Shown: positions 3,327 to 62,833 of the stretch, piece after piece
Layout of the letters: each line of letters opens with the position of its first letter
Numbering within the stretch: position 1 is the first letter of the stretch
Assembly: GCF_023091865.1 (NCBI RefSeq)
Contig: NZ_JAHXDI010000002.1
Coordinates: 186,001 to 250,000 of the forward strand
Source of the DNA: Chromohalobacter moromii
GTDB lineage: Bacteria; Pseudomonadota; Gammaproteobacteria; Pseudomonadales; Halomonadaceae
Reading direction: 5' to 3'
Length of the DNA stretch: 64,000 nucleotides
Position numbers and translations under genes: made by a program
Notes under the pieces: generated by a model
Database searches by the model: none
What the model was told of the DNA's origin: nothing
What the model saw: the letters and a program-made list of their open reading frames with translations, nothing else

Positions 3327-3370
3327 TATTCAGTGCTGAGAGGCGGACTTACGGTCAGGGAGAGGGCGGT

Positions 3371-4987: not shown

Positions 4988-4993
4988 CGCATC

Positions 4994-6397
4994 TCAGCGG
5001 CGATTCTTGCGCGCTTCGCGCGTGCGGTTCAGTTCGCGCTTCTTGGCCTTCTCACGGTCGCTGGCGCCGGCATTTTCGTCGTAGGGGTTGTCGCCCGAGC
5101 GGAACTCGAAGCGCATCGGCGTGCCGCGTACCTTGAGCACCTTGCGGAAGGTGTTGATCAGGTACCGCTTGTACGCCTCGGGCAGTGAGCCAGTCTGATT
5201 GCCGTGAACCACGATGATGGGCGGGTTGCTGCCGCCCTGGTGGGCCATCCGCAACTTGATACGGCGACCGTGGACCAACGGTGGCTGATGCTCGCTGACC
5301 GCATCCTGCAAGAGGGTGGTCAAGCGATTGGTCGACCAGTGACTGTTGGCCGAATCGAAGGCTCGCGTGATGGAGGGGTAAAGATCGCCTACTGCGGTAC
5401 CGTGTAGCGCGGAGATGAAATGCATCTCGGCGTAATCGGCGAAGCCGAGACGACGCTTGATGGCGGCGCGCATCTTGTCCTTGGCTTCTTGCTCGAGGCC
5501 GTCCCATTTGTTGACCGCTAGTACCAGCGCGCGCCCACTACTCAGGACATAGTCGAGCAGGTGCATATCCTGTTCGACCAAGCCGCTGCGCGCGTCAAGC
5601 ACCATGATCGCCACATGGCAGTCCTTGATGGCTTCGAGTGTCTTGATGATCGAGAACTTCTCGGCGGTTTCCTTGACGTTCTTGCGTCGCCGCACGCCGG
5701 CGGTGTCGACCAGCACATAGGGCTTGCCGCGGCGTTCGAAGGGGATCTCTATGGCATCACGCGTGGTGCCGGCCTCATCGAAGACGATGACGCGCTCTTC
5801 GCCCAGCAGGCGGTTGACCAGCGTCGACTTGCCGACATTGGGGCGACCGATGACGCCGATGCGAATGCCGTTGCTGAGATCCGGTGGCGCGGCGTTGGCC
5901 TCGCGCGGAGGAAAAGGCGCAAGCACCTCGTCGATCAAGGCGGTTACGTTGCGCCCATGCGCGGCGGCGATCGGGCGTGGATCGCCCAGGCCGAGCTGCC
6001 AGAAGTCCGCCGAAGCCGAGTGCTCTTCGAGCCCATCGGTCTTGTTGACCACCAGCCAGGTCTTCTTCTGGTTGACGCGTAGGTGATTGGCGATGGCTTC
6101 ATCGGCGGCGGTGAGGCCGCTACGCCCGTCGACCATGAACAGCACGATGTCGGCTTCGTCGATGGCCAGCAGCGACTGCTCGGCCATGGCGGCGTCGATG
6201 CCTTCTTCATTGCCGCTGATGCCGCCGGTGTCGATGACCGTGTAGGTTTTGTCGCCGAGCGCGCCGTTGCCGTACTTGCGGTCACGGGTCAGGCCCGCAA
6301 AGTCGGCGACCAGCGCATCACGCGTGCGAGTCAGGCGATTGAAGAGGGTCGATTTGCCGACATTGGGTCGGCCTACCAGGGCGATGACAGGATTCAT
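4994..6397 (-). CDS. der: Ribosome biogenesis GTPase Der (EngA)
   Basis: Double-domain GTPase for 50S subunit assembly, 467 residues. Two G1 motifs GRPNVGKST are present, one at the N-terminus and one at the start of the second G domain, with DTGG and DTAG G3 motifs and NKTD and NKWD G4 motifs. A KH-like C-terminal domain ends in a basic tail. The start at 6397 gives the standard [17 protein letters not shown]; the longer frame adds a nonconserved leader. The gene follows bamB in the same direction, as in Escherichia coli. Confidence 0.97.
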
Positions 6398-34414: not shown

Positions 34415-34501
34415 GCCCGGGTGGCGAAATTGGTAGACGCAGGGGATTCAAAATCCCCCGGTGGCAACACCGTGTCGGTTCGAGTCCGACCCCGGGCACC
34501 A
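34415..34501 (+). tRNA. tRNA-Leu (anticodon CAA)
   Basis: Full class II tRNA of 87 nt with encoded CCA. The acceptor stem GCCCGGG/CCCGGGC, D-arm GTGGCGAAATTGGTAGAC, anticodon loop TTCAAAA (CAA, reads UUG), long variable arm and T-arm TCGGTTCGAGTCCGA are all present. The phage integrase gene begins to the right, so its 3' end is the likely attachment core. Confidence 0.96.
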
Positions 34502-34553: not shown

Positions 34554-35570
34554 TTAGTGCTTGGTCGCAGTTTGGTCGCAGAATGCCGCATTCAAGCTCG
34601 GCAGTCGCGCACCAACGTCATCTAGCCCATGGTCGAACATGTGGGCATAACGGCTGGTGACGATCAGACTCGAATGCCCCAGCAGGTCCCGCACCGTTGT
34701 CATGCTCTCGCCCGCCTGAGCCAACAGGCTGGCATAGCTGTGACGCAGATCGTGGAATCGAAGGTCATTACGTCCCACTGCCGCGCGAGCCGTTTCCCAA
34801 ACCCGGCGGAGTCTCGCGTAGGTCGTTGGAAACGGCAGCTCCTCAAGCCATGGTCTGGCGTCTTCTGGTACCGGCACGACTCGCGCCTTGCCGGATTTCG
34901 TCTGGTCCGGTCGCAGCAATATGCGACCACCGTGGACGTTGCTACGTTCGAGGCTGAGCAGCTCGCCCTGACGCAGCCCTGTCAATGCGGCCAGTGCGAT
35001 CACCTTCTTCTCGACGGTGTGCTGGTCAGGGATCTGCGCTAGCAGCTTGCTGAGATCTTCGGTCGACAGGTAGACGTGCCGTTCGTTCTTCGGCGTGCGC
35101 TTCGCTATCTTGTCGCCCAGCGGGCGATCGAGCCATCCCCATTCCCGGTACGCCAGGTTGAGCACTCGCTTGACCACCTGCAGGTTGTTGTTGATCGTGC
35201 TCTGGGCGCGACCATCCTTGCGGAGGTCGCGCGCCATGAGTCGAGCCTTATCAACACACTCCTGGCCGAGCAGCACGCTGTCCCCCATGTATGACGCGAC
35301 CGGCCGGATCGCGTTCACTTGGGTGGACACATCGTACTCATCGATCCACCTCGCCAAACCTTCCGCAAATGTCCGCCGAGGCTGGCGGCCCATCACCTCG
35401 CCATGAAACTGAGCGTCGTTCAGTTCAGTCTGGCGGGCCGCGAGGTACTCGCGCGCTTGCTTTTCCCCTTCCCGAGATCCGTCAAACGTTCGTTGATATC
35501 GCTGACCGTTGTGCGTTTCCGTGACAACCCAGCGGTTCCTCGCTTCTCTGTATCGCAGAGTGATTCCCAT
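34554..35570 (-). CDS. int: Phage tyrosine recombinase (integrase)
   Basis: 338-residue integrase. The catalytic residues are visible: Arg in TGLRQGELLSL, His-x-x-Arg in FHDLRHSYASLL, His/Trp-position GHSS and Tyr in TSRYAHM. The N-terminal part has an arm-binding-like domain (LRYREARNRWVV) and a SAM-like core-binding domain. It ends next to tRNA-Leu, the usual orientation for tRNA-integrating phages, and its 5' 151 bp overlap the excisionase-like gene. Confidence 0.95.
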   Translation of the reverse strand: MGITLRYREARNRWVVTETHNGQRYQRTFDGSREGEKQAREYLAARQTELNDAQFHGEVMGRQPRRTFAEGLARWIDEYDVSTQVNAIRPVASYMGDSVLLGQECVDKARLMARDLRKDGRAQSTINNNLQVVKRVLNLAYREWGWLDRPLGDKIAKRTPKNERHVYLSTEDLSKLLAQIPDQHTVEKKVIALAALTGLRQGELLSLERSNVHGGRILLRPDQTKSGKARVVPVPEDARPWLEELPFPTTYARLRRVWETARAAVGRNDLRFHDLRHSYASLLAQAGESMTTVRDLLGHSSLIVTSRYAHMFDHGLDDVGARLPSLNAAFCDQTATKH

Positions 35571-35795: not shown

Positions 35796-36305
35796 TCAAT
35801 CTCCCGTATATCGCTGGCCGCCGGGGCCGTGCCCTGGGCTGTTGCGCCACTCGCTTTCCTGCCGTGCGATCGTGTCGGTCTGGCCGCGCTCGCGCGCTGC
35901 CTGTATTGCCTCTCTCACCTCGGGCATAGCCATGGCCTGGCGTCGCTGTACCAGCTCTTGCTGCTGGCGGCGAATGAGCCCGAGGGCGATGTCGGCAACT
36001 TCCCAGCGGTCGGCGGGCGTCTCGCCGTCGCTTCGGACTTTGCCGAGTCCGAAGCACCCGCCGCACGGGTTGCTGCGATTCCCCTTTATCTGGTCGGTGC
36101 CAGTGCCCAGACAGATGGAGCAGTCGTCGGCGTCGATCGCGCGCCAGTGCTGTTGCCAATCGTCGAGCGTGGTGACGCTCTGCACGTCCCGGTCGAGGTC
36201 GTGATAGACGACCAGCGCCTGACCTTCGAGTGGCCCGGCGCCCGTACTCTCGCTGACCAGGGCATACCGGCCACCGTGCTGGCGGTGTGTGTGGCTCGCT
36301 TTCAA
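35796..36305 (-). CDS. Phage protein with DUF1653-like N-terminus and CxxC zinc motifs
   Basis: 169 residues, probably starting at a TTG (36305) that overlaps the upstream stop as TTGA, with GGGAG 6 nt before it. HRQHGGRYALVSES ... GQALVVYHDL resembles the DUF1653 fold; CSICLGTG and CGGCFGLGK form a DnaJ-like zinc pair. The C-terminal part is helical and charged. Function unknown. Confidence 0.7.
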   Translation of the reverse strand: MKASHTHRQHGGRYALVSESTGAGPLEGQALVVYHDLDRDVQSVTTLDDWQQHWRAIDADDCSICLGTGTDQIKGNRSNPCGGCFGLGKVRSDGETPADRWEVADIALGLIRRQQQELVQRRQAMAMPEVREAIQAARERGQTDTIARQESEWRNSPGHGPGGQRYTGD

Positions 36306-36943
36306 TGCTCGCTCCCATCGGTCGTGCGCTGGCGGATTTCGTGCATCTGTTCCTCGACGTCTTCGGCCTGACGCTGAAGGCGCTCAATTTCAGCGAGTGT
36401 GAGAGCACCGGCCTTTTCGAGGTTGCGGCGGGCCGTGCCTGGCTTCCACCAGGAGTCATGCCAGGGCCAGAATGCCGGCGGGGGTGCGCACTCCATCCCC
36501 TTTAAGCCGTGCATTGCGTAAAAAGCCCCTGCCGTTGCCAAGATGCCTGGTGCATGGGAATTGTCATGCTCGGGCGTCCATCCTTCTGACTCGACCTGCC
36601 GCCGGCGCTCCGTGGCGATTGCGGCGAGGGGGGTGGCCGTCTCCTCTTGCGCCAGCAAAAGCTCTGCGAGGGCGGTGGTGGGCTTGACCGCAACCATGAC
36701 GATCTCGCAGTCCTCAGTGTCGAAGCGGGCAAGCTCCGTGAAGCCTTCCGGCACCTCGAACGTGAGCGCCGCCATGTAGGCTTCGGGACTGGCCTCGAAA
36801 CGCTCAGTATTCTCCGGCTCTTCATCGCGATCCGGTGTCTCTTGGCACTCGACGTGAACCTCGAACCCAAGCGGCTCAAGGATTCGCTTAACGCATTGCT
36901 CTTCGAAAAGTGGGTGTTCGAGCAGTTGGTCGATGAGTCGCAT
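36302..36943 (-). CDS. Conserved phage protein of unknown function
   Basis: 213 residues, start 36943 after AAGGAGG. The C-terminal half (AAIATERRRQVESEGWTPEHD ... FWPWHDSWWKPGTARRNLEKAGALTLAEIERL) is a domain I recognise as frequent in phage early regions with no assigned function. The N-terminal half is acidic. Overlaps the next gene by 4 bp. Confidence 0.75.
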   Translation of the reverse strand: MRLIDQLLEHPLFEEQCVKRILEPLGFEVHVECQETPDRDEEPENTERFEASPEAYMAALTFEVPEGFTELARFDTEDCEIVMVAVKPTTALAELLLAQEETATPLAAIATERRRQVESEGWTPEHDNSHAPGILATAGAFYAMHGLKGMECAPPPAFWPWHDSWWKPGTARRNLEKAGALTLAEIERLQRQAEDVEEQMHEIRQRTTDGSEH

Positions 36944-36970: not shown

Positions 36971-38692
36971 TCAGTGGGCGACGGGCTGATCGGGTCGGCT
37001 TAGGGATAGGCCGGCGGCAGCCTGGCGCACCCATATCGGTGTGGAGCCCAGGGCGAATGTCTCGCCGGTCCATGCCAGCAGCAGGGTGGTGCCCATCACG
37101 CCAGCGATGGCCTCCGATGCCGGGGGCGGGACAGCGTTGCCGATGCGTTCGCGCCAGTCGCTATCGCTCAGGCCTGCCAGCTCAAGGTGCTCGGTGGGCT
37201 CGATGAGACCCTGTAGCGCGGCCAGTTCCAGCGTGGTGAAAGGGCGATGCCATGTGCCGTCCAGTGCGCGGATCACTGCGACAAGCTTTTGTGCTGCCGC
37301 TGGCAGGTATTCGCCTTCAAGCGTGCTTCTCGCGAGCCTCGGGTCAGCTACCGACCAGAAGCCGTTGTCCTGGCGGGCTGATGCCGAAACCGCCCCGCAA
37401 CTCGAGGACCAGGGAACGACGCCGTAGTGGCCACCAGTCAGGTAGTTGTCACCACGCGACCGGCGCATGCCCGGGCGAGGATCGGCGACGGCATAGGCCC
37501 CCTGGCCAGTGGTGCTGCCGGAAATGACGGTGCCAGCGTGCTCGTCCCAGCGGGTGACCATGTACTTGCCGAAGGAGGGCCCGGCCTGACGAGGATCCGC
37601 GACAGCGAAAGCTCCTTGTCCTGGCGACTTCTGGCTGGTGATTGCGCCTGTGGGCCCATCCCAGCGCCGGACGCCGTAGGCTTGGCCATCTTTCCATTTG
37701 GCCGACTGGTCGAAGCGAGGATCCGCGACCGAGAACTTCCCATTTCCGGGGCGGCTGGCACCGGCTACGGTGCCGGCTGCCTCCTGCCAGTCATGAACGC
37801 CCAGATAGCCGTTATTCCTGCCCTCGGGGACGATGAGGTAGTCGCGCAGGTTTCCGTCTTCCACGGCCAGTTTGTTGAGCGATCGCCAGTCACTGCCGGC
37901 CTCGACGAACGCCAAGCGCACCCAGGTCTTCCACTGCAGGCGGGGGACACGGTGCATCGCCCCGGCCAGCTCATCGCCGGGCAGCGGCATATCGCCCAGT
38001 ACGTCGCCCACGGCGCGTAGTGGGCGCTTCACCGGTTCGTACAGGAAGGGCGGCACCTTCTCGGCATGGCGGGCGACCAGCAGGAAACGCTTGCGGGATT
38101 GCGCCAGGCCTCCCAGCTCGCCGCAGTCGTGCGTGGTCTCCGCGACGTGATAGCCGTAGTGCTCGAGCATGGCCACGATTTGGTCGAGCAGCGGCCGGCC
38201 CCGGTTGGCGATGCGCGGCACGTTTTCGAAGATGATCAGCTCCGGCGGGTCGTCGGCGAATGCTTCCAGGGCCAGCCACATGCCGCGCAATGTCAGGCGA
38301 TTAAGGGCCTGGTACTTGGGCGTGGTGCTCCGGCTCTGGCTCAGCAGGCCGGAGAAGCCCTTGCAGGGGGCCGACAGAAACACGATGTGCGGGTTCTCGT
38401 TGCCAGCCGCTGCTTGAATGTCGGCGGGCGTGGACTCGCGCCAGTCCGCCGGCGGCTCCTTTCCGTGAAAGGCGATGTACTGATCCCGGTCGAACATGTC
38501 GAGCACGGTGCCGGGAGTGCCTGCCAGGCGGCCGAAATCGGCGATTGCAGCAGGGTCCACGTCCACGCCGCCGATGCAGCGAAACCGTGCTTCCAGGTTG
38601 CCCACCCGGGCGTGGCCGCGATTGAAGCCCTTGGCCCCGGCACCCAGGCCGCAGAATAGATGAAAGTGCCGAATCTCTCGGTGCTCGAGCAT
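36971..38692 (-). CDS. Phage C5-cytosine DNA methyltransferase with internal VADPR repeats
   Basis: 573 residues. Motif I HLFCGLGAG (11-19), catalytic Cys110 (APCKGF), ENV (156-158), QSRKRFLLVAR (motif VIII) and C-terminal RIGNAVPPP (motif X) are intact. Between VIII and X, about residues 296-452 hold four degenerate repeats, each ending VADPR (322, 364, 402, 448), where the target-recognition domain should be. The start at 38692 has AGGGAG; an in-frame start at 38776 would lie beyond the terminator at 38710-38735. Likely protects phage DNA from host restriction. Confidence 0.88.
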   Translation of the reverse strand: MLEHREIRHFHLFCGLGAGAKGFNRGHARVGNLEARFRCIGGVDVDPAAIADFGRLAGTPGTVLDMFDRDQYIAFHGKEPPADWRESTPADIQAAAGNENPHIVFLSAPCKGFSGLLSQSRSTTPKYQALNRLTLRGMWLALEAFADDPPELIIFENVPRIANRGRPLLDQIVAMLEHYGYHVAETTHDCGELGGLAQSRKRFLLVARHAEKVPPFLYEPVKRPLRAVGDVLGDMPLPGDELAGAMHRVPRLQWKTWVRLAFVEAGSDWRSLNKLAVEDGNLRDYLIVPEGRNNGYLGVHDWQEAAGTVAGASRPGNGKFSVADPRFDQSAKWKDGQAYGVRRWDGPTGAITSQKSPGQGAFAVADPRQAGPSFGKYMVTRWDEHAGTVISGSTTGQGAYAVADPRPGMRRSRGDNYLTGGHYGVVPWSSSCGAVSASARQDNGFWSVADPRLARSTLEGEYLPAAAQKLVAVIRALDGTWHRPFTTLELAALQGLIEPTEHLELAGLSDSDWRERIGNAVPPPASEAIAGVMGTTLLLAWTGETFALGSTPIWVRQAAAGLSLSRPDQPVAH

Positions 38693-38709
38693 GCTTTTCT
38701 CCCTGGCAT

Positions 38710-38735
38710 AAAAACGCCGGCTCATGGCCGGCGTG
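38710..38735 (-). terminator. Intrinsic terminator between ArsR-like gene and methyltransferase
   Basis: On the minus strand ACGCCGGC-CATGA-GCCGGCGT is followed by TTTT. It would end the ArsR-like transcript before the methyltransferase unless transcription is antiterminated. Confidence 0.8.
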
Positions 38736-38751
38736 GTGGTGATCGGTTTGT

Positions 38752-39027
38752 CTAGCGGCGGTGTCGTCGCCGCCACTCGATGAGTTCTCGCACCGCTGGG
38801 TCATCCGCGACGCGGTAGTAGATCGTTTGCGAAGCGCGTCGCGTTTCCACGACCTCGGCATCACGCATGATCTTGAGGTGCTGCGACAGAGCGGACTGCG
38901 TCACTTGGCCAAGCACGTCATTGATGGCGTTGACGCTCATCTCGCCGCGCGACTCGAGCATGTCGAGTACGTAGGCGCGGCGCGGGCTGGCAAAGACGCG
39001 AAGCAGTTGATCGGAGGTGCTGGGCAT
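38752..39027 (-). CDS. ArsR-type winged-helix regulator
   Basis: 91 residues, start 39027 (the frame is open further to 39057). DQLLRVFASPRRAYVLDML, VNAINDVLGQVTQSALSQHLKIMRDAEVV and TIYYRVAD are the canonical ArsR wHTH blocks. No metal-binding CxC motif is present, so it is not an obvious metal sensor. Unusual cargo for a leftward early operon; may control phage or host genes. Confidence 0.85.
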   Translation of the reverse strand: MPSTSDQLLRVFASPRRAYVLDMLESRGEMSVNAINDVLGQVTQSALSQHLKIMRDAEVVETRRASQTIYYRVADDPAVRELIEWRRRHRR

Positions 39028-39081: not shown

Positions 39082-39708
39082 CTATGCCGCCTTTGCCTCC
39101 TTCGCTTTGTCGTACACGCCTATACCCCAGACGATGGCCCAGCAGCACCAGAGGTAGTGGAAGGTGTACTTAGTGCAGCGGACCTCGAAGAAGTCTGTGA
39201 ACTCGAAGTCGTTGTGCTGGAATTCCATCGCGTTGCGCATGGCCACGGCTTCGAGGTCTGTTTCCTCAAGCACCTCGTCCTCGATTTCCGACCAGAGCTC
39301 GGCGGCGGCGGCTTCGTCGAGCTCCTCGTCTTCGACGTAATCATCGAAGCGCTTGCGGATCTCGGCGCGGAAGTCTTCCTCATCCCACTCTGTGCAAATT
39401 TCGCGCGCTCCCTCGCTGCCTGCGCCGGCCTGAACCTTCTCCATCCAGTAGCCAGGGTTTATCCCGAGTTGGCCGTCTTCGCAGCGGAAGAACCCGAACA
39501 TGTCTCGCGTACGCGAGAACACGAAATCGCCCATATCGCCGGTGATCGCCAGGTATCCCGGCCAAGTGGTGATGTTGAAGTGGTAGGCGCTGGAGCCGCC
39601 CCGCGAAAAGCGCAGGTGGCGGTACAGTCCGTCATCGTGCAGGACTTCCATTTCGTGGCTGGCGACGTCTTTCTGGAACCGTTCGAGGATCTCGAGGATC
39701 GGGTGCAT
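39082..39708 (-). CDS. Conserved phage protein
   Basis: 208 residues, start 39708 after GGAGGGAG. HFNITTWPGYLAITGDMGDFVFSRTRDMFGFFR is a conserved phage-protein block of unknown role; the middle is strongly acidic (FDDYVEDEELDEAAAAELW) and the end contains a cysteine- and aromatic-rich stretch (HYLWCCWAIVWGIGVYD) that is weakly hydrophobic. Located just after rdgC-ftsK-gamma. Confidence 0.75.
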   Translation of the reverse strand: MHPILEILERFQKDVASHEMEVLHDDGLYRHLRFSRGGSSAYHFNITTWPGYLAITGDMGDFVFSRTRDMFGFFRCEDGQLGINPGYWMEKVQAGAGSEGAREICTEWDEEDFRAEIRKRFDDYVEDEELDEAAAAELWSEIEDEVLEETDLEAVAMRNAMEFQHNDFEFTDFFEVRCTKYTFHYLWCCWAIVWGIGVYDKAKEAKAA

Positions 39709-39725: not shown

Positions 39726-40943
39726 TTATGGGGTGGTGATCACCCGCCGGCGGCCTTGGTTGTCCATCGGCGTAACGATGCCGGCCGCCTCCATCGCCTC
39801 GACCAGGTGGCAGGCGCGGTTGTAGCCGATCTTGAAGTGGCGCTGTATGCCTGACACCGAGGTTTTGCTCAACTCTCCGGCATGGCGCACCGCTTCGGGG
39901 TAGAGCGGGTCGTTCTGATAGCCAAACGGTTGTGGCTCTGCGCTAATGCCGCTGCCGCCGATGCCTTCCACTCGTCCATCGTGATTGATACGCACCGTCC
40001 ACTGATCGCTCAACCCTTCGGTAGCCGGATCGGCCTCGCCGCCAAGCCCGTCGATGAGTTGCTCGATGCACTCGCGCAACGCCCCGGTCATCAGGGCGAA
40101 GTCGGTCTCGAGACGCATGATCGGGTCGTCGTCGTCCTCGACCTGTGAGGCCTCGTCGAGCAGGGCGTCGGCGAAGCGGATCGACTTGAGCGTCAGGTCG
40201 TCGTGCAGCATCGCCGTTACCCGCTCGTCGATCTCGATCTGCAGGCGCGTGACCTGGCGGCCTGGCGCGAGGACGCTTTGCGTGTCGTCGGCGTCGATAT
40301 CGATGCCCGATGCGGACCACTTCCCATCGTCACCATGGCTATCTTCGAGTACGGCTTTTTCACCGATGCGCAGCCAGGCCGGGCGGATTTTGGGTTGATG
40401 CACCCAGTTAGTCATGGTGCGCGATGGCAGCTGGCGGACAGCCAGAGGCGTCACCTGCAGCGAGCCGAGGGACTGCCGCAGCAGGTCGAGCACTTCCTCG
40501 GCGCGCGTGCGGCTGGCGGCGTTGATGGCGATGAGGGCGCGATCGGTGTCCCACCACATATCGATGCGCTGCGTGCGCGTGAAGGCCCGGGGCAGCAGTT
40601 CCTCGATGACCTGTTCTTTGATTGCCTGCCGGTCGCGGCGCGGCACGGGCCGGCCCTCGGTGGCCTCGCGTTCGGCGACGCGTTCCTCGACCTCCTCGCG
40701 GATCACCGAGGCGGGCAGGATGCGCTCCTGGCGCAGCACAGTGAGCAGGCGGTGGCCCTGGATCTCATGAACAAGCTGCGTGCCCTGGCGACCCGCTGGC
40801 GGATACCACCCCAGGCGGCGGGCCTCGGCGGATGACACGGGCCGGTGGGTGTGCTCTGCGAGGGCGCTGGTCAGAGTGTCGAGGGCTATGCCGGCGGCGG
40901 CCGCGCCGTGTAGGCGGTAGGCGTGTACGGTCTTGAACCACAT
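39726..40943 (-). CDS. rdgC: RdgC recombination-associated protein fused to an FtsK-gamma DNA-binding domain
   Basis: 405 residues. Residues 1-300 are RdgC: MWFKTVHAYRL, GWYPPAGRQ, ERILPASVI, ELLPRAFTRTQ, LLRQSLGSL and the closing LIDGLGGEAD are in order. After a ~43-residue linker, residues 344-405 (DPLYPEAVRH ... QRHFKIGYNRACHLVEAMEAAGIV) match the FtsK gamma winged helix that binds KOPS. RdgC is a ring-forming dsDNA protein that limits RecA access. The start at 40943 has AAGGAG 8 nt upstream. No ATPase motor domain is present. Confidence 0.93.
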   Translation of the reverse strand: MWFKTVHAYRLHGAAAAGIALDTLTSALAEHTHRPVSSAEARRLGWYPPAGRQGTQLVHEIQGHRLLTVLRQERILPASVIREEVEERVAEREATEGRPVPRRDRQAIKEQVIEELLPRAFTRTQRIDMWWDTDRALIAINAASRTRAEEVLDLLRQSLGSLQVTPLAVRQLPSRTMTNWVHQPKIRPAWLRIGEKAVLEDSHGDDGKWSASGIDIDADDTQSVLAPGRQVTRLQIEIDERVTAMLHDDLTLKSIRFADALLDEASQVEDDDDPIMRLETDFALMTGALRECIEQLIDGLGGEADPATEGLSDQWTVRINHDGRVEGIGGSGISAEPQPFGYQNDPLYPEAVRHAGELSKTSVSGIQRHFKIGYNRACHLVEAMEAAGIVTPMDNQGRRRVITTP

Positions 40944-40945
40944 GG

Positions 40946-41275
40946 TTATTGCTCCTTTCTCCTGATCCACTCGCCGTCGACGAGCATGTCGCTGATGCCG
41001 ATGGCGTTGAGCTCATCGTGTGTAAGGCTCTCGCCGCTGTATCCGCCTTCGGGCTCGATGACCATGCGCACCGTCAGGTGTTTGATCCGTCCGATAACGA
41101 CTTCGCCTGCGACAGGGTGGTCCTCGCCGTTGATAGTTCTTGTTGGGTCATGACCGCCCGCCTCCGCCTTGGCGGTTGCCTGGAGGATTGGGGCGGCCAG
41201 TGACGTGAATGCTTGCTGTACGGCCGGCTTATCGAGCCAAACCGATAGTGATTGGATATCTGGTGAGGTGCTCAC
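40946..41275 (-). CDS. Unknown phage protein
   Basis: About 109 residues from a GTG at 41275 that overlaps the upstream stop (GTGA) and has AGGAG at good spacing; an ATG at 41302 is less likely. Small acidic protein (SLSVWLDKPAVQQAFTSL ... LNAIGISDMLVDGEWIRRKEQ). Ends 2 bp before the rdgC fusion gene. No family recognised. Confidence 0.65.
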   Translation of the reverse strand: MSTSPDIQSLSVWLDKPAVQQAFTSLAAPILQATAKAEAGGHDPTRTINGEDHPVAGEVVIGRIKHLTVRMVIEPEGGYSGESLTHDELNAIGISDMLVDGEWIRRKEQ

Positions 41276-45514: not shown

Positions 45515-46264
45515 TTACAGCCGTGTCTTGGCTTCCACGGCCACACCGACGATTCGGCAATTGCCATTGATGGCAATGACGGGATAGGCCGGGTTGAGCG
45601 CTTTCAAGAACCGCTGTCCGCCATCTTCGACGAGCTTCTTGAATGTCGCCTCATTGCTGTCATCGACCTGTGCAACCACCAGCTTTCCTGGCGCTGCTTC
45701 AACACCGGGATCAATAAGCACCAAGGTGCCTTCTGGGATCGTCGGCGTGGCGCCAGGCGGCGCTGTCATCGAGTCACCCTTGATCTCAAGCCAGAACGCG
45801 TGCCCCTTGGCCTGATAATCGGTCGCCTCGAGGTGAGGCTCGACGCCTGGGGCGTACGGGATGACGCACTCAGTCCATCCGCCAGCCTGACCGTAGCCAA
45901 TCACGGGGTAGCGATAGTAACTGGCGGGCTGATCCGCTGGTCGGGTATTGGGGGCTATTTGTCCATCGCCGGCCGGTTTTGCCTCATATGCTGCCGAGGT
46001 GTCACTGACTTTCGCTAATTCCATCGGGCCACGACCGTAGGCTAGCCACTCCTCTCTAACCTGCAGGCGTTCGGACAGCGTCATGATCTTCTCATGACCA
46101 GGTATGGAGTCACCGTTCAGCCACTTGATGGCAGCTCGCGGCGAAACCTCGCACATTTTGGCGAGTTTTTGGCCGGATCCCCAGTCACGAATGCCTGCAT
46201 TCCTCAGGGCTTCACGCAGCCTCTCGGCGAAGGCCTGCTTTGCTTGCTCAGAAGTTTGAACCAT
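45515..46264 (-). CDS. cI: CI-like repressor (HTH + S24 peptidase)
   Basis: 249 residues. An N-terminal HTH (GSGQKLAKMCEVSPRAAIKWLNGDS) is joined by a linker with an Ala-Gly site (KPAGDG) to a LexA-type C-terminal domain with catalytic Ser in KGDSMTAPPG and Lys in EATFKKLVED. RecA-stimulated self-cleavage and SOS induction are expected. Divergent from cro across the two-operator gap; no strong ribosome site precedes the ATG. Confidence 0.93.
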   Translation of the reverse strand: MVQTSEQAKQAFAERLREALRNAGIRDWGSGQKLAKMCEVSPRAAIKWLNGDSIPGHEKIMTLSERLQVREEWLAYGRGPMELAKVSDTSAAYEAKPAGDGQIAPNTRPADQPASYYRYPVIGYGQAGGWTECVIPYAPGVEPHLEATDYQAKGHAFWLEIKGDSMTAPPGATPTIPEGTLVLIDPGVEAAPGKLVVAQVDDSNEATFKKLVEDGGQRFLKALNPAYPVIAINGNCRIVGVAVEAKTRL

Positions 46265-55794: not shown

Positions 55795-55958
55795 GTTGGA
55801 ATGCACCTCGGTGGTGCATCGAGGATCGAGGGGGAGGGGGAGGTCAAATCCCTGGAGCCTTTCCCCCCCCGGACACCGCCGCCATCATCAGATTTTTATA
55901 CCCGCGAAATTGAAAAATCAGGTCGGCGGGATTGGTTCTCAGTTGGGAGTGATTGCAA

Positions 55959-56429
55959 ATGACAAAAGGTCGCAAGCCCAAGCCGACCCATTTGAAGGCC
56001 GTCCAGGGTAACGCCGGTAAGCGAGCAATTAACCATGACGAGCCTCAGGCCGATGCGCTGAGCGACGTTCCTTTGCCGCCGGAGTGGCTCGACCCGGTCG
56101 GTATCGAGATGTGGGAGAAGGTCGCGCCCTGGTTGGTGAGCAGCAAGATTCTCACGGAGTCGGACGTCCCCAACCTCGAGGCCTACTGCGCTGCGTACGC
56201 GCGGTGGCGACAGGCCGAGAAGGACATCGCCAAGAATGGCATCACGGTGATGGGCATGAACTCAGAAATAAAGAACCCGGCATGCACCGTGGCCAATGAA
56301 TCCCTCAAGCAGATGACGACCTTCGGCAGCGCCTTGGGCCTGGATCCCGCCAGTCGGGCTCGCCTGGCAGTGCCGGGCGCGAAGGAAGCAAACAACCCGT
56401 TCAAGGACTTGGTGGGTAAGAAGCGATGA
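55959..56429 (+). CDS. Terminase small subunit (P27 family)
   Basis: 156 residues starting MTKGRKPKPTHLKAVQGNAGKR, a P27-type hallmark, then WLDPVGIEMWEKVAPWLVSSKILTESDVPNLEAYCAAYARWRQAE and a C-terminal NPFKDL. Start 55959 with GGGAG. Recognises packaging sites for TerL. Confidence 0.92.
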   Translation: MTKGRKPKPTHLKAVQGNAGKRAINHDEPQADALSDVPLPPEWLDPVGIEMWEKVAPWLVSSKILTESDVPNLEAYCAAYARWRQAEKDIAKNGITVMGMNSEIKNPACTVANESLKQMTTFGSALGLDPASRARLAVPGAKEANNPFKDLVGKKR

Positions 56430-56435
56430 GATCGA

Positions 56436-58151
56436 ATGGCCAGCTACCCCAACGTCAACGCCGCGAACAAGTACGCCAGGGACGTCGTGGCTGGCCGGAT
56501 ACCGGCGTGCAAAGAGGTCCGGCAGGCTTGCCAGCGCCATCTGGACGATCTCAAGGCAGCGAAGTCCCGGTCGTTTCCGTACCGGTTCGACCGCGACGCC
56601 GCTGAACACGCCAGCGTCTTCATCCAACTGCTGCCTCACACCAAGGGGCGCTGGGCGCGCGAGAAGCAGCTGGTCTCCCTAGAGCCTTGGCAGCTATTCA
56701 TCGTCTGCGCCATCTTCGGCTGGCTGAAGAAGAAGACCGGGCTGCGGCGGTTCAGCGAGGCCTACATCGAGGTCGAGCGCAAGAATGGCAAGTCGGTGCT
56801 GGCCGCGGCCATCGCCAACTACATGCTGTGTGCCGATGGCGAATACGGCGCCGAGGTCTACTGCGGGGCGACCACCGAGAAGCAGGCCTGGGAGGTGTTC
56901 CGCCCGGCCCGGCTGATGCTTAAAAAGTCGCCAGCCCTGGTCAGTGCGGCTGGCATCGAGGTGATGGCCAAGAACATCTCGATCCCGGAGGACGGCAGCC
57001 GCCTCGAGCCGCTAATCGGCGATCCTGGCGACGGCTCATCGCCCAGCTGCTCGCTGGTCGATGAGTTCCACGAGCACCAGAGCCCGAACCTCTACGACAC
57101 CATGCTCACCGGCATGGGGGCTCGCGACCAGGGGCTGATGTTCATCATCACCACCGCCGGCTTCAACCTGGCAGGACCGTGCTACGACAAGCGACGCCAA
57201 GTGCAGCAGATGCTCTCAGGCGCACTGCCTAACGATGAACTGTTCGGGATTATCTACACGATCGACCAGGGTGACGACTGGCAAGATCCGGCGGTGCTGC
57301 GCAAGGCGAATCCCAACTTCGGCGTCTCCGTCTCCGAGGAGTTTCTGCTCAAGGCGCAGCGTGACGCCATCCGCTACCCGAGTCGCCAGAATTCTTTCCT
57401 GACGAAGCACCTCAACGTCTGGGTCAGCGCCCGGACGGCTTGGCTGAACATGGCGGACTGGCACTCGTCTGGCGACGACGGTCTGACACTCGACGATTTC
57501 GAAGGGCAGGAGTGTTGGCTAGGTGTCGACCTCGCCAGCAAGACAGACATCGCCGCCATTGCGCTGCTGTTTCGCGATGAGATTGAGGATAAGAACGGTC
57601 GAGCCAAGACGCGCTGGACCGTCTTCGTGCGCAGCTACTTGCCGGAAGGCGCGGTTGAGCGCGCGAGTAACAACCGTGCCGCTTATGAAAGTTGGGTGAA
57701 CAGTGGCGATCTGATCACTACCGACGGCGAAGAGCTCGACTTCGACATCATTCGCGAGGACATCAAGGACCTCGCTGGGCGCTTCGACATCCAGGAGATT
57801 GCCTACGACCCATGGCGCGCCACGCAGCTTGCCCATCAGCTGATGAAGGACGGCGCCGAGGTCATCGAATACCGCAACACGGTGCAGAACATGAGCCCCG
57901 CGATGCGCGAGATGGAGGCTGCCATTACCGGCAGTCGCTGGCGTCACAGCGCCGACCCGGTTCTCACCTGGATGGCTTCTAACGTGGTCGCCAAGTCCGA
58001 TGCGAAGGACAACATCTACCCGCGCAAAGAGAAGGAAGAGAACAAGATCGACGGCATCATCGCGATCCTCATGGCGCTGGGCCGTGCGGTGCTCACCGAG
58101 AATGACGAGGCCGAGCAATCCATTTACGACACGACGGACGTTACATGCTGA
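56436..58151 (+). CDS. Terminase large subunit (HK97 type)
   Basis: 571 residues. ATPase: variant Walker A VERKNGKSVLAA (113-124) and Walker B CSLVDEFHEH; nuclease: GVDLASKTDIAAIALLF with the first acidic residue and later EIAYDPWRATQLA. Packages DNA into proheads and cleaves at cos. Starts 6 bp after TerS. Confidence 0.96.
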   Translation: MASYPNVNAANKYARDVVAGRIPACKEVRQACQRHLDDLKAAKSRSFPYRFDRDAAEHASVFIQLLPHTKGRWAREKQLVSLEPWQLFIVCAIFGWLKKKTGLRRFSEAYIEVERKNGKSVLAAAIANYMLCADGEYGAEVYCGATTEKQAWEVFRPARLMLKKSPALVSAAGIEVMAKNISIPEDGSRLEPLIGDPGDGSSPSCSLVDEFHEHQSPNLYDTMLTGMGARDQGLMFIITTAGFNLAGPCYDKRRQVQQMLSGALPNDELFGIIYTIDQGDDWQDPAVLRKANPNFGVSVSEEFLLKAQRDAIRYPSRQNSFLTKHLNVWVSARTAWLNMADWHSSGDDGLTLDDFEGQECWLGVDLASKTDIAAIALLFRDEIEDKNGRAKTRWTVFVRSYLPEGAVERASNNRAAYESWVNSGDLITTDGEELDFDIIREDIKDLAGRFDIQEIAYDPWRATQLAHQLMKDGAEVIEYRNTVQNMSPAMREMEAAITGSRWRHSADPVLTWMASNVVAKSDAKDNIYPRKEKEENKIDGIIAILMALGRAVLTENDEAEQSIYDTTDVTC

Positions 58152-58324
58152 CTTCCCTAATCATCTTCCTGATCGGGCTGATCGGCGCCGCACTGGTGTC
58201 GTTCGGCACCTGGCTGATGGTGCCTGCTGCCGGTTACATCGTCGCTGGGGTGCTGTGCCTGTCATGGTCATGGCTCGCCTCACGCGCTGCTGGACGTCAG
58301 GCGCCGCCGCAGGAGGGTGACTGA
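58145..58324 (+). CDS. Small two-helix membrane protein between TerL and portal
   Basis: 59 residues (MLTSLIIFLIGLIGAALVSF ... SRAAGRQAPPQEGD). Two hydrophobic segments and a short polar tail. It overlaps the TerL stop by 7 bp and shares TGATG with the portal start, so translation is coupled. Small TM proteins occur in this position in other HK97-type phages; function unknown. Confidence 0.75.
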   Translation: MLTSLIIFLIGLIGAALVSFGTWLMVPAAGYIVAGVLCLSWSWLASRAAGRQAPPQEGD

Positions 58325-59598
58325 TGTTCTGGCCCGGCCTATTTACAACCGCTGCAGGCGGACACCAACGCAAAAACACTGACTGGACCGGCTGGGTGAG
58401 CTCAGTCACCGGCCGTCAGAGTAGCGCGGGCACCATGGTGAACACCGAATCAGCGCTCGCTGTTGGCGCGTTACGCGCGTGCGTGACGCTGCTGGCGGAA
58501 TCCGTGGCCCAACTTCCCTGCGAACTTTACCGGCGGGACGGTGACGGCGGGCGTGATCGTGCTGTTGATCACCCGATCTATGATCTCGTTCACAGCCAGC
58601 CGAATCGCAAGGACACCTCGTTCGAGTATTACGAGCAGGCTCAGGGATGCCTCGGGCTGGAAGGCAATCATTTCTCACTGATCGAACGTGACGAGCGTGG
58701 GTACCCGACTGAGCTGATCCCCATTCACCCGAAGAAAGTACGAGTGCTCAAAGGCCCGGATGGCATGCCGTATTACCACCTGGTCGAGGTCGACGAGGTG
58801 GTGCCGATGCGCATGATGCATCACATCAAAGCGTTCTCGGTGGATGGTTACGTCGGTCTATCACCGATCGCCACCAACTCTGATGTGATCGGACTTGGCC
58901 TCGCCACTGAGCAACATGCCGCCGCCGTCTTTCAGCGCGGCGCCACGATGTCTGGTGTGATCGAGCGCCCCAGAGAATCGGAAGGCATCAAGGACCAGGC
59001 AGCAGTAGACCGGCTATTGAATAAGTTCACCGAGCGCCATGGGGGCGGACTGAGGAATGCGTTCTCGGTAGCGCTTCTCCAAGAGGGCATGACCTACAAG
59101 CAGCTCTCGATGGACAACGAAAAGGCGCAGCTGCTCGAGTCGCGCAACTTCTCTATCAATGAGGTTTGCCGTCTGTACAAAGTGCCGCCGCACATGGTCC
59201 AGCAGCTCGACAAGGCCACCTTTAACAACATCGAACACCAAGGGCTGCAGTATGTCATCTACACCCTACTGCCCTGGGTGAAGCGCATTGAAGCGGCAAT
59301 GATGCGCGACCTGCTGCTGCCGGAAGAGCGCAAGCAGCTTTACATCGAGTTCAATGTCGGCGGCCTACTGCGCGGTGATCAGAAGTCGCGCTATGAGTCC
59401 TATGCCCTCGGGCGCCAATGGGGATGGTTGTCGGTCAACGATATCCGGCGCTTGGAGAATATGCCGCCGATCTCAGGTGGTGACCGCTACCTCACGCCCA
59501 TGAACATGAACGACTCCGGCAACATTCAGCAGTCGATCAATGCCACGCCCGAGCAAATGAAGGAAATCGAGGGGATCATCCAATGTCGCACGCCCTGA
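58324..59598 (+). CDS. Portal protein (HK97 family)
   Basis: 424 residues. ALAVGALRACVTLLAESVAQLPCELYRR, VDHPIYDLVHSQPN, VGLSPIATNSDVIGLGLATEQHAAAVFQRGATMSGV, and RNFSINEVCRLYKVPPHMV are HK97 portal blocks. Forms the dodecameric DNA entry ring. Overlaps the protease gene by 16 bp. Confidence 0.96.
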   Translation: MFWPGLFTTAAGGHQRKNTDWTGWVSSVTGRQSSAGTMVNTESALAVGALRACVTLLAESVAQLPCELYRRDGDGGRDRAVDHPIYDLVHSQPNRKDTSFEYYEQAQGCLGLEGNHFSLIERDERGYPTELIPIHPKKVRVLKGPDGMPYYHLVEVDEVVPMRMMHHIKAFSVDGYVGLSPIATNSDVIGLGLATEQHAAAVFQRGATMSGVIERPRESEGIKDQAAVDRLLNKFTERHGGGLRNAFSVALLQEGMTYKQLSMDNEKAQLLESRNFSINEVCRLYKVPPHMVQQLDKATFNNIEHQGLQYVIYTLLPWVKRIEAAMMRDLLLPEERKQLYIEFNVGGLLRGDQKSRYESYALGRQWGWLSVNDIRRLENMPPISGGDRYLTPMNMNDSGNIQQSINATPEQMKEIEGIIQCRTP

Positions 59599-60521
59599 TC
59601 AACTATCCACACATTGCGTCGATGGTGTTCGATACACCGCTCTACGCGACGCCCACGCTGGTCCAGTCCGTGCGCTCGGTCCTTGAGCCGCGCCTGCTCG
59701 GCAAAGCCACAGATCTCCCCGATGGCATCAACCTCGGGAGTGATACGCCTGAAGAGCGCGAGATGCAGCATCTTCAGGTAGTCGGCCGCATGGCGATCAT
59801 TCCCGTGCACGGCGTGCTGGTCGCCCGCCGCGGCACCATCAACGCGGCATGCGAAGAGCTGGTGTCCTATGAACGCCTGCGCACGCAAATTACCGCTGCG
59901 CTCAATCATGAGTTCGTCGAGGAAATCGTGCTCGATTTCCATACCGGCGGTGGCCACGCCATGGGGTGCAAGGAACTGGCGGATTTCATTCGTGCCAGTA
60001 CCGCGACCAAGCCGATCACGGCGCTTGTCAATTTCGCGGCTTACTCAGCGGGTTACTTCCTCGCGGCGGCTTGTTCACGCATCGTCTGCAGCCCGACGGC
60101 TGGCGTTGGCTCCATCGGCGTCATTATCGAAACGTTCGAAGTGAGTCGCATGGAAGAAGAGGCCGGGATCGTCTTCAACACCTTCTTCCGTGGTGACCAC
60201 AAGAACGACGGCTCCCCGCACGAGCCGATCACCGACCAAGCCGTCGCCGAGATCAACCACAAGCTCGACGTCCATTACACGGTGTTCACCGACGCGATTG
60301 CCGCCTATCGCGGCATGAGCACGGATGAAGTGGTCTCCACGCAAGCGCGGCTCTATACCGCCGAGGATGCGCTGGCGGCCAAACTGATTGATGAGATCGC
60401 ACCCGCCCAAGATGCGGTGGACGCCATCGCGCAACGCTACTCCAGCCAATCCAGCAATACCGGTCCAGTTCGAAGCATCCGAGCACAAGCTCGGGCGCTC
60501 GACGCCCAGTGTCAGCTCTAG
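59583..60521 (+). CDS. Head maturation protease, S49/SppA-like
   Basis: 312 residues. MAIIPVHGVLVARRG, VLDFHTGGGHAMGCKEL, and the serine motif NFAAYSAGYFLAAAC with TAGVGSIGVI follow the S49 peptidase order; catalytic Ser in AYSAG. Sits between portal and capsid, so it is the prohead protease that processes the capsid delta domain. Confidence 0.92.
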   Translation: MSHALINYPHIASMVFDTPLYATPTLVQSVRSVLEPRLLGKATDLPDGINLGSDTPEEREMQHLQVVGRMAIIPVHGVLVARRGTINAACEELVSYERLRTQITAALNHEFVEEIVLDFHTGGGHAMGCKELADFIRASTATKPITALVNFAAYSAGYFLAAACSRIVCSPTAGVGSIGVIIETFEVSRMEEEAGIVFNTFFRGDHKNDGSPHEPITDQAVAEINHKLDVHYTVFTDAIAAYRGMSTDEVVSTQARLYTAEDALAAKLIDEIAPAQDAVDAIAQRYSSQSSNTGPVRSIRAQARALDAQCQL

Positions 60522-60599
60522 CCGAGCGGCGGAGCGACAACCACAGGCGGCCATTGGGTCGCTTTTTTTATGCCCGTGAATCCTCAAGGAGACGCCACG

Positions 60600-61901
60600 A
60601 TGCCTTCGATTGAAGAACTCCGCCGCGAGCGCGCCGAGGTCAATGATCAGATCCAAGCGCTGGCCAAGCAGGAAGAAGAGAGCGGCGAGCTCAGTGCCGA
60701 GCAGCTCGAGCAGTTCGAGAAGCTGTCCAAGCAATTCGACGACACCAGCGCCAAGCTTGGGCGTGCCGAACGTACCGAACGCATGAATGCCACTGCCTCA
60801 ACGCCTGTCGAGAGCTACGGCGGTCGCGGCCCGGCAGTGCACACCAAGCCCGAGCTCAAGCAGTATGTCGGCGCTACCGCCGCGCGCATGGCCATGTCCA
60901 TGGCCGCCGGTCGGGGCGATATGCAGCTCGCCGCTCAGTTCGCGCGTAACGAGATCGGTGATGACGATGTCGCCATGGCAGTAGAGACCGCCGCTGGCTC
61001 AGGTGGGTCATTGGTACCGCAGAACATGCACGATGAGATTATCGAGCTGCTGCGGCCCAAGACCATCGTGCGTTCGCTGGGTGCCCAGACCATGCCGCTA
61101 CCCAACGGTAACCTCAGCCTGCCGCGCATGGCCTCTGGTGCCACGTCGAGCTATGTGGGCGAGGGCAGTGACGTGCTGGCCAGCGAGGGCGGTACCGACG
61201 ACGTCGCGCTGAACGCCAAGACCATGATCACCATGGTGCCGTTCTCGAATCAGCTGATCGGTCGTGCCGGCTTCAACGTCGAACAGATGTTCCTCAACGA
61301 CATGCTGTCCAGCATGGCGGTGCGTGAAGACAAGGCGTTCTTGCGCGATGACGGGTCCAGCGATACCCCCACCGGCTTCTCCAAGATTTGTCGCGACGAA
61401 GGGCGCGTCGTTCCATGGGACAGCGCCGACGCCAAAGACATGGCTGCCATCGACGCCTATCTCGACCGACTGATCCTGACGCTGATGGAGAGCGATAGCC
61501 TGCTGATGCGTCCGGGCTGGGGTATGTCACCGCGCACCTACATGAAGCTTTTCGGCTTGCGAGATGGCAACGGGAACAAGGTTTATCCGGAAATGGCCAA
61601 CGGTGAGCTGAAGGGCTGGCCGATCCGTCACACCACTACCATTCCCAACAACCTCGATACCTCAGAAGCCGGCAACAGTAACGAAAGCGAGATCTACTTC
61701 GCGGACTGGAACGATGTGGTGATCGGTGAAAGCGACACCATGACCATCGACTTCAGTCGCGAGGCTACCTACAAGGATGCCAACGACAACCTGGTTAGCG
61801 CCTTCTCGCGCAACCAATCGCTGCTGCGTGTCGTGAAAGAGCACGACGTGGCGTTCCGTCATCCCGAAGGGCTGGTACTCGGCAGCGAAGTGCCTTGGTA
61901 A
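60600..61901 (+). CDS. Major capsid protein (HK97 fold)
   Basis: 433 residues from ATG 60600 with AAGGAG. Residues 1-75 form a charged coiled coil (IEELRRERAEVNDQIQALAKQEE), the delta domain cleaved in HK97-type heads; then GGSLVPQNMHDEIIELLRPKTIVRSLGA and VPFSNQLIGRA capsid blocks. A hairpin (60532-60563, AGCGAC/GTCGCT then T7) precedes it and may modulate expression. Confidence 0.94.
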   Translation: MPSIEELRRERAEVNDQIQALAKQEEESGELSAEQLEQFEKLSKQFDDTSAKLGRAERTERMNATASTPVESYGGRGPAVHTKPELKQYVGATAARMAMSMAAGRGDMQLAAQFARNEIGDDDVAMAVETAAGSGGSLVPQNMHDEIIELLRPKTIVRSLGAQTMPLPNGNLSLPRMASGATSSYVGEGSDVLASEGGTDDVALNAKTMITMVPFSNQLIGRAGFNVEQMFLNDMLSSMAVREDKAFLRDDGSSDTPTGFSKICRDEGRVVPWDSADAKDMAAIDAYLDRLILTLMESDSLLMRPGWGMSPRTYMKLFGLRDGNGNKVYPEMANGELKGWPIRHTTTIPNNLDTSEAGNSNESEIYFADWNDVVIGESDTMTIDFSREATYKDANDNLVSAFSRNQSLLRVVKEHDVAFRHPEGLVLGSEVPW

Positions 61902-61976
61902 GCCATCCTCGTGACAATCGCCCGGTGATGAGCCGGGCGTAGTCTGCTTCTCACCTGACCATCAAGGAATTATCCC

Positions 61977-62210
61977 ATGGCCACTACCCAGAAAGACTCT
62001 CGCAAGCTGACCTCCATGACGTTCAAACGCCCCTGGCATCGTTATACGAAAGGCGACCGCGCCGGGTTCGAGCCTGAGCGTGCCAAGCAACTGGAAGAGC
62101 GGAAGATCGCCGTACCGACTGCCAGCCTCAAGAAAGACGCTGGCGGCGAGACCAAAGCCAGCAACAGCAACAGCAACAGCAAAAGCGAAAGCGCCGCCGA
62201 TAAGGCCTGA
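61977..62210 (+). CDS. Small head-associated protein
   Basis: 77 residues. MTFKRPWHRYTKGDRAGFEPERAKQLEERKIAV is a conserved small-protein pattern found after phage capsid genes; the C-terminus is low complexity (SNSNSNSKSES). Function unproven; connector or decoration accessory possible. Confidence 0.75.
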   Translation: MATTQKDSRKLTSMTFKRPWHRYTKGDRAGFEPERAKQLEERKIAVPTASLKKDAGGETKASNSNSNSKSESAADKA

Positions 62211-62272
62211 CGCCCTTAACACGGCCGCCGTATAGCGGTGGTCGTGATTCCGAATTCTGAGCGAGTGCCCGC

Positions 62273-62833
62273 ATGATCGAACTTGCCGATGCCAAGCTCC
62301 ACCTGCGATTGATCGACAGTCGTGACGACGCGGATAGCTACACCGCCGAGGACACGCTGATTCAGGCGTTGATCGATGCGGCCGTTCGCTACGCCGAGAA
62401 CCACACGCAAGCACGGATCGCATCGCCCACTGTTTCAAAGGTGCTCGACGGGTTCCCCGCCCAGGATGGGGCTATTGAGCTTCCCTGGTCGCCGGTGATC
62501 GCCATCGAGAGCCTCGAATATGTCGACCCCGAGGGCGTGGAACAGACGCTCGACGCCTCGACGTTGCGTCTCGACACCCGGCCGATCATGCCAACGCTGT
62601 CACCTCAGTATGGCAGCGACTGGCCACGAACGATCGACGAGCCCGAGTCGGTGACAATCAGCGCCACCGTGGGATACGAAACCATCCCGCCCGATATTCG
62701 TGTCGCGCTGCTGTTGCTGGTGGGGCACTGGTACGAAAACCGCGAGCAGGTCATCACCGGGACCATCACCAGCGAGGTGCCGATGGGGGTCGCCGCGCTG
62801 CTGGCGCCGTACCGCATTCACGCCGTGGGGTGA
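62273..62833 (+). CDS. Head-tail connector protein (gp6-like)
   Basis: 186 residues. IELADAKLHLRLIDSRDDADSYTAEDTLIQALIDAAVRYAENHTQ and a C-terminal PPDIRVALLLLVGHWYENRE are HK97 gp6/SPP1 gp15-like adaptor signatures. Confidence 0.88.
   Translation: MIELADAKLHLRLIDSRDDADSYTAEDTLIQALIDAAVRYAENHTQARIASPTVSKVLDGFPAQDGAIELPWSPVIAIESLEYVDPEGVEQTLDASTLRLDTRPIMPTLSPQYGSDWPRTIDEPESVTISATVGYETIPPDIRVALLLLVGHWYENREQVITGTITSEVPMGVAALLAPYRIHAVG

Follow-up and report, generated by a model that had tools for sequence, protein, structure and literature searches.

A prophage RdgC protein carrying an FtsK gamma tail that phages have repeatedly gained and lost

Why would a prophage couple a whole RdgC protein to a domain of bacterial FtsK? 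This question is raised by one gene in the window, as we call the whole stretch of 64,000 nucleotides that was analysed. Escherichia coli RdgC is described as a dimer that encircles DNA and lowers both strand exchange by RecA and cleavage of LexA (PMC11077077). What RdgC does for phages is little understood: hrdC of phage P1 was reported to be non-essential by CRISPRi (PMC10695390), and insertion into ORF46 of PY54, probably an exonuclease/recombination-associated gene, was reported to be tolerated (PMC10612081). Several questions follow. Is the fusion genuine and phage-borne? How widespread is it, and does its tail persist? Does the tail meet KOPS DNA, as the first-pass annotation proposed, or the host protein XerD?

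The fused gene and its prophage

The gene is read from the minus strand; the plus strand of 39726-40943 holds four in-frame stops. The upstream frame (41302-40946) ends immediately before the gene. Its parts are as follows.

39726..40943, minus strand: RdgC-gamma coding sequence, 405 aa, ATG at 40943, stop codon 39728-39726
40035..40943, minus strand: RdgC domain, residues 1-303 (Pfam PF04381, 6.3e-85; 2owl, 1e-53)
39918..40034, minus strand: linker, residues 304-342, weakly conserved from fusion to fusion
39735..39917, minus strand: FtsK gamma winged-helix domain, residues 343-403 (Pfam PF09397, 1.4e-20)
39816..39845, minus strand: QRHFKIGYNR, residues 367-376, equivalent to E. coli FtsK 1288-1297 (XerD/KOPS contact face)
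40952..40957, minus strand: ribosome-binding-like AAGGAG, eight bases upstream of the ATG

The first-pass annotation had described a complete RdgC and a C-terminal FtsK gamma domain in one uninterrupted frame behind a good ribosome site, and all of this is borne out; the linker, put at about 43 residues, measures 39. The RdgC match reaches 285.5 bits (cut-off 25) over the whole model (1-298 of 298), and the FtsK_gamma profile, a check that the annotation had proposed, matches at 73.1 bits (curated cut-off 30.6); a search of the genome itself gave 77 bits for this domain. Pfam assigned these two domains and no FtsK/SpoIIIE ATPase motor domain to the protein, and NCBIfam assigned RdgC models and a C-terminal FtsK stretch. 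Among solved structures, 2owl and 2owy match the first part by sequence and 2ve8, 2ve9 and 2j5o (4e-17) the last part; we take these to be E. coli and Pseudomonas aeruginosa RdgC and P. aeruginosa FtsK gamma. An assembly error is unlikely because the same two-domain frame recurs in independent phage records, in 80 of the 80 IMG/VR loci kept and in three further genomes of the family.

The surroundings are those of a prophage of about 49.4 kb in tRNA-Leu, as the 3′ part of this tRNA recurs downstream.

34443..34501, plus strand: attL, the 3′ part of tRNA-Leu (tRNA 34415-34501), repeated with a mismatch gap at extended coordinates 83858-83915
34557..35570, minus strand: phage tyrosine integrase (Pfam PF00589, 1.3e-21)
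39085..39708, minus strand: downstream neighbour of RdgC-gamma, phrog_4657 (unknown), which also adjoins the gamma-less rdgC of a sister prophage
45518..46264, minus strand: S24 (LexA/CI-type) repressor (Pfam PF00717, 3.4e-24)
55953..62830, plus strand: terminase small and large subunits, portal, S49 protease, capsid and head-tail connector (Pfam)

The RdgC-gamma gene lies between the integrase and the S24 repressor in a leftward early operon, with the head genes running rightward. The integrase, the att repeat and the head genes confirm the prophage location claimed earlier and rule out a chromosomal, non-phage gene. The host has its own RdgC (G000:C4:211856), 67% identical over residues 1-308 and devoid of gamma, and its own FtsK. 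Recent capture of the window gamma from host FtsK was rejected, the identity to it being 49% as against 58% to a Lysobacter-type FtsK and to another fusion. A role as a defence system was dropped, as PADLOC gave no match for the fusion.

Two other genes of this region may be recorded. A large C5-cytosine methyltransferase (36974-38776) belongs to the same operon, and methyltransferases also stand beside RdgC-gamma in other phages. In a 213-aa protein (36302-36943), the C-terminal half matches the terminal parts of numerous longer phage families that have no known function, including phrog_6628, 9434 and 11504.

Spread, gain and loss of the tail

The first-pass annotation had asked whether other fusions exist and whether phages carry them. 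The fusion does recur in phages, and the window copy is not unique. By tblastn, 334 of 50,697 phage records gave a match, and in 57 of these the match spans 80% or more of the query; the closest RdgC relatives come from phages of Halomonas and Cobetia. High coverage does not by itself establish a fusion, as Itty13 reaches 80% yet has no gamma by Pfam. Both domains were found by Pfam in four phage proteins (F_ET605sp, Skulduggery, D60, vB_VpaP_1601) and by HMM in five more phages (BR228a, 264E42.1, CF418P1, K279, F1Pa). In IMG/VR, a first scan with the single RdgC-gamma protein as query gave no match. A scan with a gamma pattern gave 491 relatives, and the 80 kept, a set biased towards gamma by this search, all have both domains. 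When RdgC patterns alone were used, gamma was present in 10 of 79 new RdgC frames, plus one locus (L072) already known to carry it; phage-borne RdgC without gamma is common.

The fusion also occurs in bacterial genomes. Among the matches listed, four places span both parts in 101 genomes of the family (G000, which is the host, G014, G035 and G087) and two in 369 genomes of the class (G000 and G435), where all other RdgC matches listed stop by model position 328 of 384. A gamma search of 56 class genomes gave 54 matches above cut-off, of which 52 lie in FtsK-like frames of at least 692 aa, the remaining two being a 183-aa frame and the window fusion. One scan named Serratia quinivorans and Marinomonas spartinae as bacterial hosts of the fusion. 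These copies also have phage surroundings, with integrases and SSB genes near those of G014 and G035 and phage methyltransferases near those of Serratia and Marinomonas. Neighbours of gamma-plus loci by PHROGs and Pfam (65 of 75 proteins listed) include methyltransferases, SSB (3), RecT (2) and lambda-P-like proteins (4), a tally that covers gamma-plus loci alone, with 91 gamma-minus neighbour proteins left out, and so has no control. One fusion contig (L029, G087:C13) is 40,777 bases long, as is an IMG/VR virus, and carries a ParA-like gene beside RdgC-gamma; it is possibly a phage-plasmid.

How stable is the tail? The firmer evidence comes from twin pairs rather than from a tree. A sister prophage (G001) has an RdgC 88% identical to that of the window and the same neighbour genes, without gamma; the junction is clean, falling where RdgC ends, and the same bases (CCATAACGAAAA) surround the stop. 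Three further pairs of near-identical RdgC differ in the presence of gamma (L074/L310, L087/L300 and L044/L049). In Hollowayvirus, the gene order is ssb-rdgC-yejK-lexA-like in phages without gamma (F116, phiC725A) and ssb-rdgC-gamma-lexA-like in phages with it (BR228a, F1Pa). Among these, phiC725A and F116 (L049/L050) have an NA37/YejK nucleoid-associated-protein gene at the place taken by the gamma tail alone in their gamma-plus relatives, which suggests that tail and gene are alternative cassettes. The gammas of BR228a and F_ET605sp are nearly the same (dS 0.17) on RdgC parts that are only 68% identical (dS 0.59), so the tail is also transferred from one RdgC allele to another.

The RdgC tree points the same way. 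Its 128 rows (45 with gamma, 83 without) were left from 199 after omission of window duplicates (L002, L216), broken frames (L005, L019), RdgC matches shorter than 230 aa, identical rows, and rows more than 90% identical that share a label. The gamma label requires 27 changes against a shuffled mean of 37, a rough count because the tree came from a quick, short search with long-branch warnings; at least 17 of the changes are forced by well-supported (starred) branches. The gamma nearest to a fusion gamma belongs to another fusion in 37 of 49 cases and to FtsK in 12, and that nearest to an FtsK gamma belongs to FtsK in 36 of 36, in a comparison resting on 60 residues and thus weak in resolution. 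The linker runs from 11 to 140 residues with a median of 22 (110 frames, duplicates included). Gamma is under purifying selection, with dN/dS of 0.02-0.46 across 22 close pairs, some of which share near-identical members and so are not independent. Gamma is a plug-in tail on phage RdgC that has been gained and lost repeatedly.

What the tail may contact

Published work on E. coli FtsK supplies a map for this question. Residues 1289-1297 (RQFRIGYNR) are reported as the XerD-activating stretch, sufficient to stimulate XerCD, with R1289 pairing with XerD E184; the XerD contacts given in Table 1 of that paper (Q1288, R1289, R1292, I1293, G1294, N1296) form part of the contacts made with KOPS DNA, and one KOPS is bound by three gammas (PMC5052618). 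N1296, R1300 and E1303 have been named as KOPS residues (PMC2533119). R1300A and E1303A are reported as KOPS-defective while fully supporting XerCD-dif recombination, and R1300A/E1303A/E1306A is the "blind" FtsK allele (PMC2680272).

On this map, the window gamma has Q, R, K (for R), I, G and N at the six XerD contacts, and so retains that face. It keeps N1296, E1303 and E1306 and has H at 1300, so its set of KOPS residues is incomplete. Judged from these residues, R1300H lowers the probability that the window gamma reads KOPS, not its membership of the FtsK gamma fold family.

The same division appears in 49 fusion gammas (representatives less than 85% identical). Q1288, R1289 and N1296 are kept in all 49, R1300 in 34 (elsewhere H, W, S, E or K), E1303 in 44 and E1306 in 43; at least one of the last three is changed in 19, and all three are kept in 30. 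Most fusions had been found by a pattern over residues 1291-1298, so the fair comparison is that of Q1288 and R1289 together with the 20 fusions found without the gamma pattern. In the latter, Q1288, R1289 and N1296 are each kept in 20 of 20, R1300 in 15, E1303 in 19 and E1306 in 20, so that the KOPS group R1300/E1303/E1306 is changed in six and the group Q1288/R1289/N1296 in none. FtsK gammas, with four gamma frames of less than 560 aa (L142, L158, L053, L027) set aside, keep R1300, E1303 and E1306 in 30 of 30 found by HMM and 36 of 36 found by pattern. The difference at R1300 is clear both for all fusions (34/49 vs 30/30, Fisher p 3e-4) and for the pattern-free ones (15/20, p 0.007); E1303 and E1306 taken singly differ weakly (p 0.04-0.15). 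XerD-contact residues are thus retained while KOPS-only residues drift, with the proviso that conservation of R1289 and N1296 cannot separate XerD from KOPS, as both use the same surface.

Do KOPS sequences accompany the tail? They were counted as forward/reverse occurrences of GGGNAGGG, as the first-pass annotation had proposed for host and phage. The host genome is polarised, with GGGCAGGG occurring 141 times forward and 34 times in reverse and the reversed pattern 41 and 21 times. In the phages, strand bias is independent of gamma. The 64-kb window has eight KOPS against 8.5 expected, which is no excess; within the prophage, five are forward and two reverse. Among high-GC phages, the first three counts seemed telling, with 1/13 and 13/0 in gamma-plus phages (BR228a and CF418P1) and 6/9 in gamma-minus QHHSV-1. 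In Hollowayvirus, F_ET605sp (0/9) and F1Pa (2/10), like BR228a, have RdgC-gamma, F116 (8/1) and phiC725A (9/2) have RdgC without gamma, and KOPS lie mostly on the strand opposite rdgC in each case. AchV4, an Achromobacter phage like CF418P1, has 4/0 without gamma. The five Vibrio/Skulduggery records with gamma contain between none and four KOPS apiece (Skulduggery 3/1, 264E42.1 1/2, K279 2/1, D60 1/0, vB_VpaP_1601 0/0), other RdgC records without gamma have few (Carin1 2/2, Itty13 0/0, PDP46 0/1), and records with gamma and no RdgC have 0/6 (AUS531phi) and 0/0 (Vibrio 1.179.O). Polarity thus tracks phage lineage, not gamma, and was rejected as a sign of KOPS use, the gamma-minus F116, phiC725A and AchV4 being equally polarised.

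Xer sites were sought as well. No dif with up to three mismatches was found in nine gamma-plus phage records, and a looser Xer-site pattern gave one weak three-mismatch match, not a convincing one, in eight; dif or psi-like sites in these phages were therefore dropped, and the phages tested do not have the form of an element with its own Xer site. The host genome has one dif, with one mismatch to the pattern used, and its XerD keeps the E183-E184 pair; at the five contact-table positions mapped, E119 and E184 are kept and Q123E, I127P and Y187A are changed. A second Xer-like site outside the window (G000:C1:998585-998609, one mismatch to the loose pattern) has a tyrosine recombinase match (C1:996613-997284) some 1.3 kb away, and the two possibly belong to an Xer-integrated element.

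The reading that we tentatively prefer, at somewhat less than an even chance, is that gamma is an arm linking an anti-RecA RdgC ring to the host Xer machinery. The RdgC part would be a dimeric ring that acts on DNA and limits RecA, and gamma on its flexible linker would be a docking module borrowed from bacterial FtsK. Its partner would more probably be host XerD, in the XerCD-dif complex, than KOPS DNA, on three grounds: the residue that forms the XerD salt bridge is constant where KOPS-only residues drift, a KOPS takes three gammas whereas an RdgC dimer would supply two, and the tail comes with no enrichment of KOPS. Such an arm would bring the ring to the dif/Xer circuit or present gamma to XerD without FtsK, and as an outcome RecA crossovers would be limited and Xer recombination engaged outside normal division control. 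RecA inhibition by the window RdgC, XerD binding and all consequences for phage and host are what we infer here from sequence. Against the arm count the surface shared by XerD and KOPS, the fusions that keep all three KOPS residues, the partial conservation of XerD contacts in the host and the lack of a visible Xer substrate in the phages. That RdgC-gamma goes as far as to activate or redirect host XerCD without FtsK while blocking RecA crossovers, and so prevents and resolves multimers or commandeers the dif region, seems rather unlikely.

The first-pass annotation had suggested a tether, in which gamma would read KOPS on the host chromosome or the phage, seat an oriented RdgC ring there and steer RecA or FtsK. 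The gamma match above the Pfam cut-off, the polarised host genome, the overlap of XerD and KOPS contacts, the 30 fusions with an intact R1300/E1303/E1306 set and the constant N1296, itself a KOPS residue, all speak for this proposal; it is weakened by the phage polarity, the few KOPS of Vibrio gamma-plus phages, the absence of excess in the window, R1300H, the 19 fusions with changed KOPS-only residues and the mismatch of two gammas per RdgC dimer with three per KOPS, and we hold it to be possible but doubtful. Another doubtful reading, which may nevertheless apply, is that gamma is a spare winged helix which helps the ring to load on DNA or to bind it more tightly, with a relaxed or phage-specific sequence preference. 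The diverse replacements of R1300, the variable linkers and the alternation of the Hollowayvirus tail with yejK fit such an auxiliary grip, which by itself leaves the retention of Q1288 and R1289 in 49 of 49 unexplained. It is improbable that gamma is a decoy that occupies XerD or KOPS and halts host FtsK-XerCD during infection, or blocks rival dif-integrating elements: the contact face is intact and the host has a dif-like site beside a recombinase gene, but a lone gamma would suffice, and some phages have gamma without RdgC.

Comparison with known systems

The first-pass annotation knew of no described protein with this architecture. In the open literature, as distinct from subscription papers and preprints, no description of an RdgC-FtsK gamma fusion was found; the sequences themselves are already in GenBank, where their annotations read RdgC, exonuclease, recombinase or DNA translocase and nothing more. 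With a tail gained and lost many times and a published separation-of-function map, a vague RdgC family becomes testable: natural pairs with and without gamma, and R1300/E1303 set against R1289, can show whether gamma reads KOPS or docks to XerD. In the latter case a recombination protein would give phages access to chromosome dimer resolution, a connection that we did not find in print.

RdgC proteins of bacteria and phages (E. coli RdgC 2owl, P1 HrdC, F116 p14) resemble RdgC-gamma in matching the whole RdgC model and differ in lacking the extra linker and gamma domain. FtsK/SpoIIIE shares with it the Pfam family and the XerD-contact residues of gamma, whereas RdgC-gamma has no motor, and the gamma of the window copy has lost R1300 and is 49% identical to host FtsK gamma. 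The phage small terminase Sam46/Sam112 is, as described, another phage DNA-handling protein that has borrowed gamma, in that case N-terminal to a Terminase_2 partner, and the same source notes phages with lone gamma genes whose role its authors call unknown (PMC8190038). Vibrio phage 1.179.O has such a lone gamma protein (182 aa, 4641-5189), and Vibrio phages of about 32 kb have similar gamma matches, annotated as "FtsK gamma domain protein" or hypothetical. Pseudomonas phage AUS531phi encodes a 323-aa protein with a central FtsK gamma (2509-3480) between RecT-like and SMC-annotated genes and adjoining a Cas4/PD-(D/E)XK nuclease, that is, gamma in another phage recombination module; it differs in having no RdgC match. 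RdgC-like proteins encoded beside histones share the RdgC fold with extra N- and C-terminal domains and differ in their 18% identity to RdgC and in that these domains, where the paper describes them, are not called FtsK gamma (PMC11390915). XafT of a Vibrio cholerae element is reported as a XerD-activating factor (PMC9765430). It would be a functional parallel if RdgC-gamma also served a mobile element by activating XerD without FtsK. To our knowledge, XafT has no RdgC part. The residues of RdgC-gamma are compatible with Xer activation of the XafT kind.
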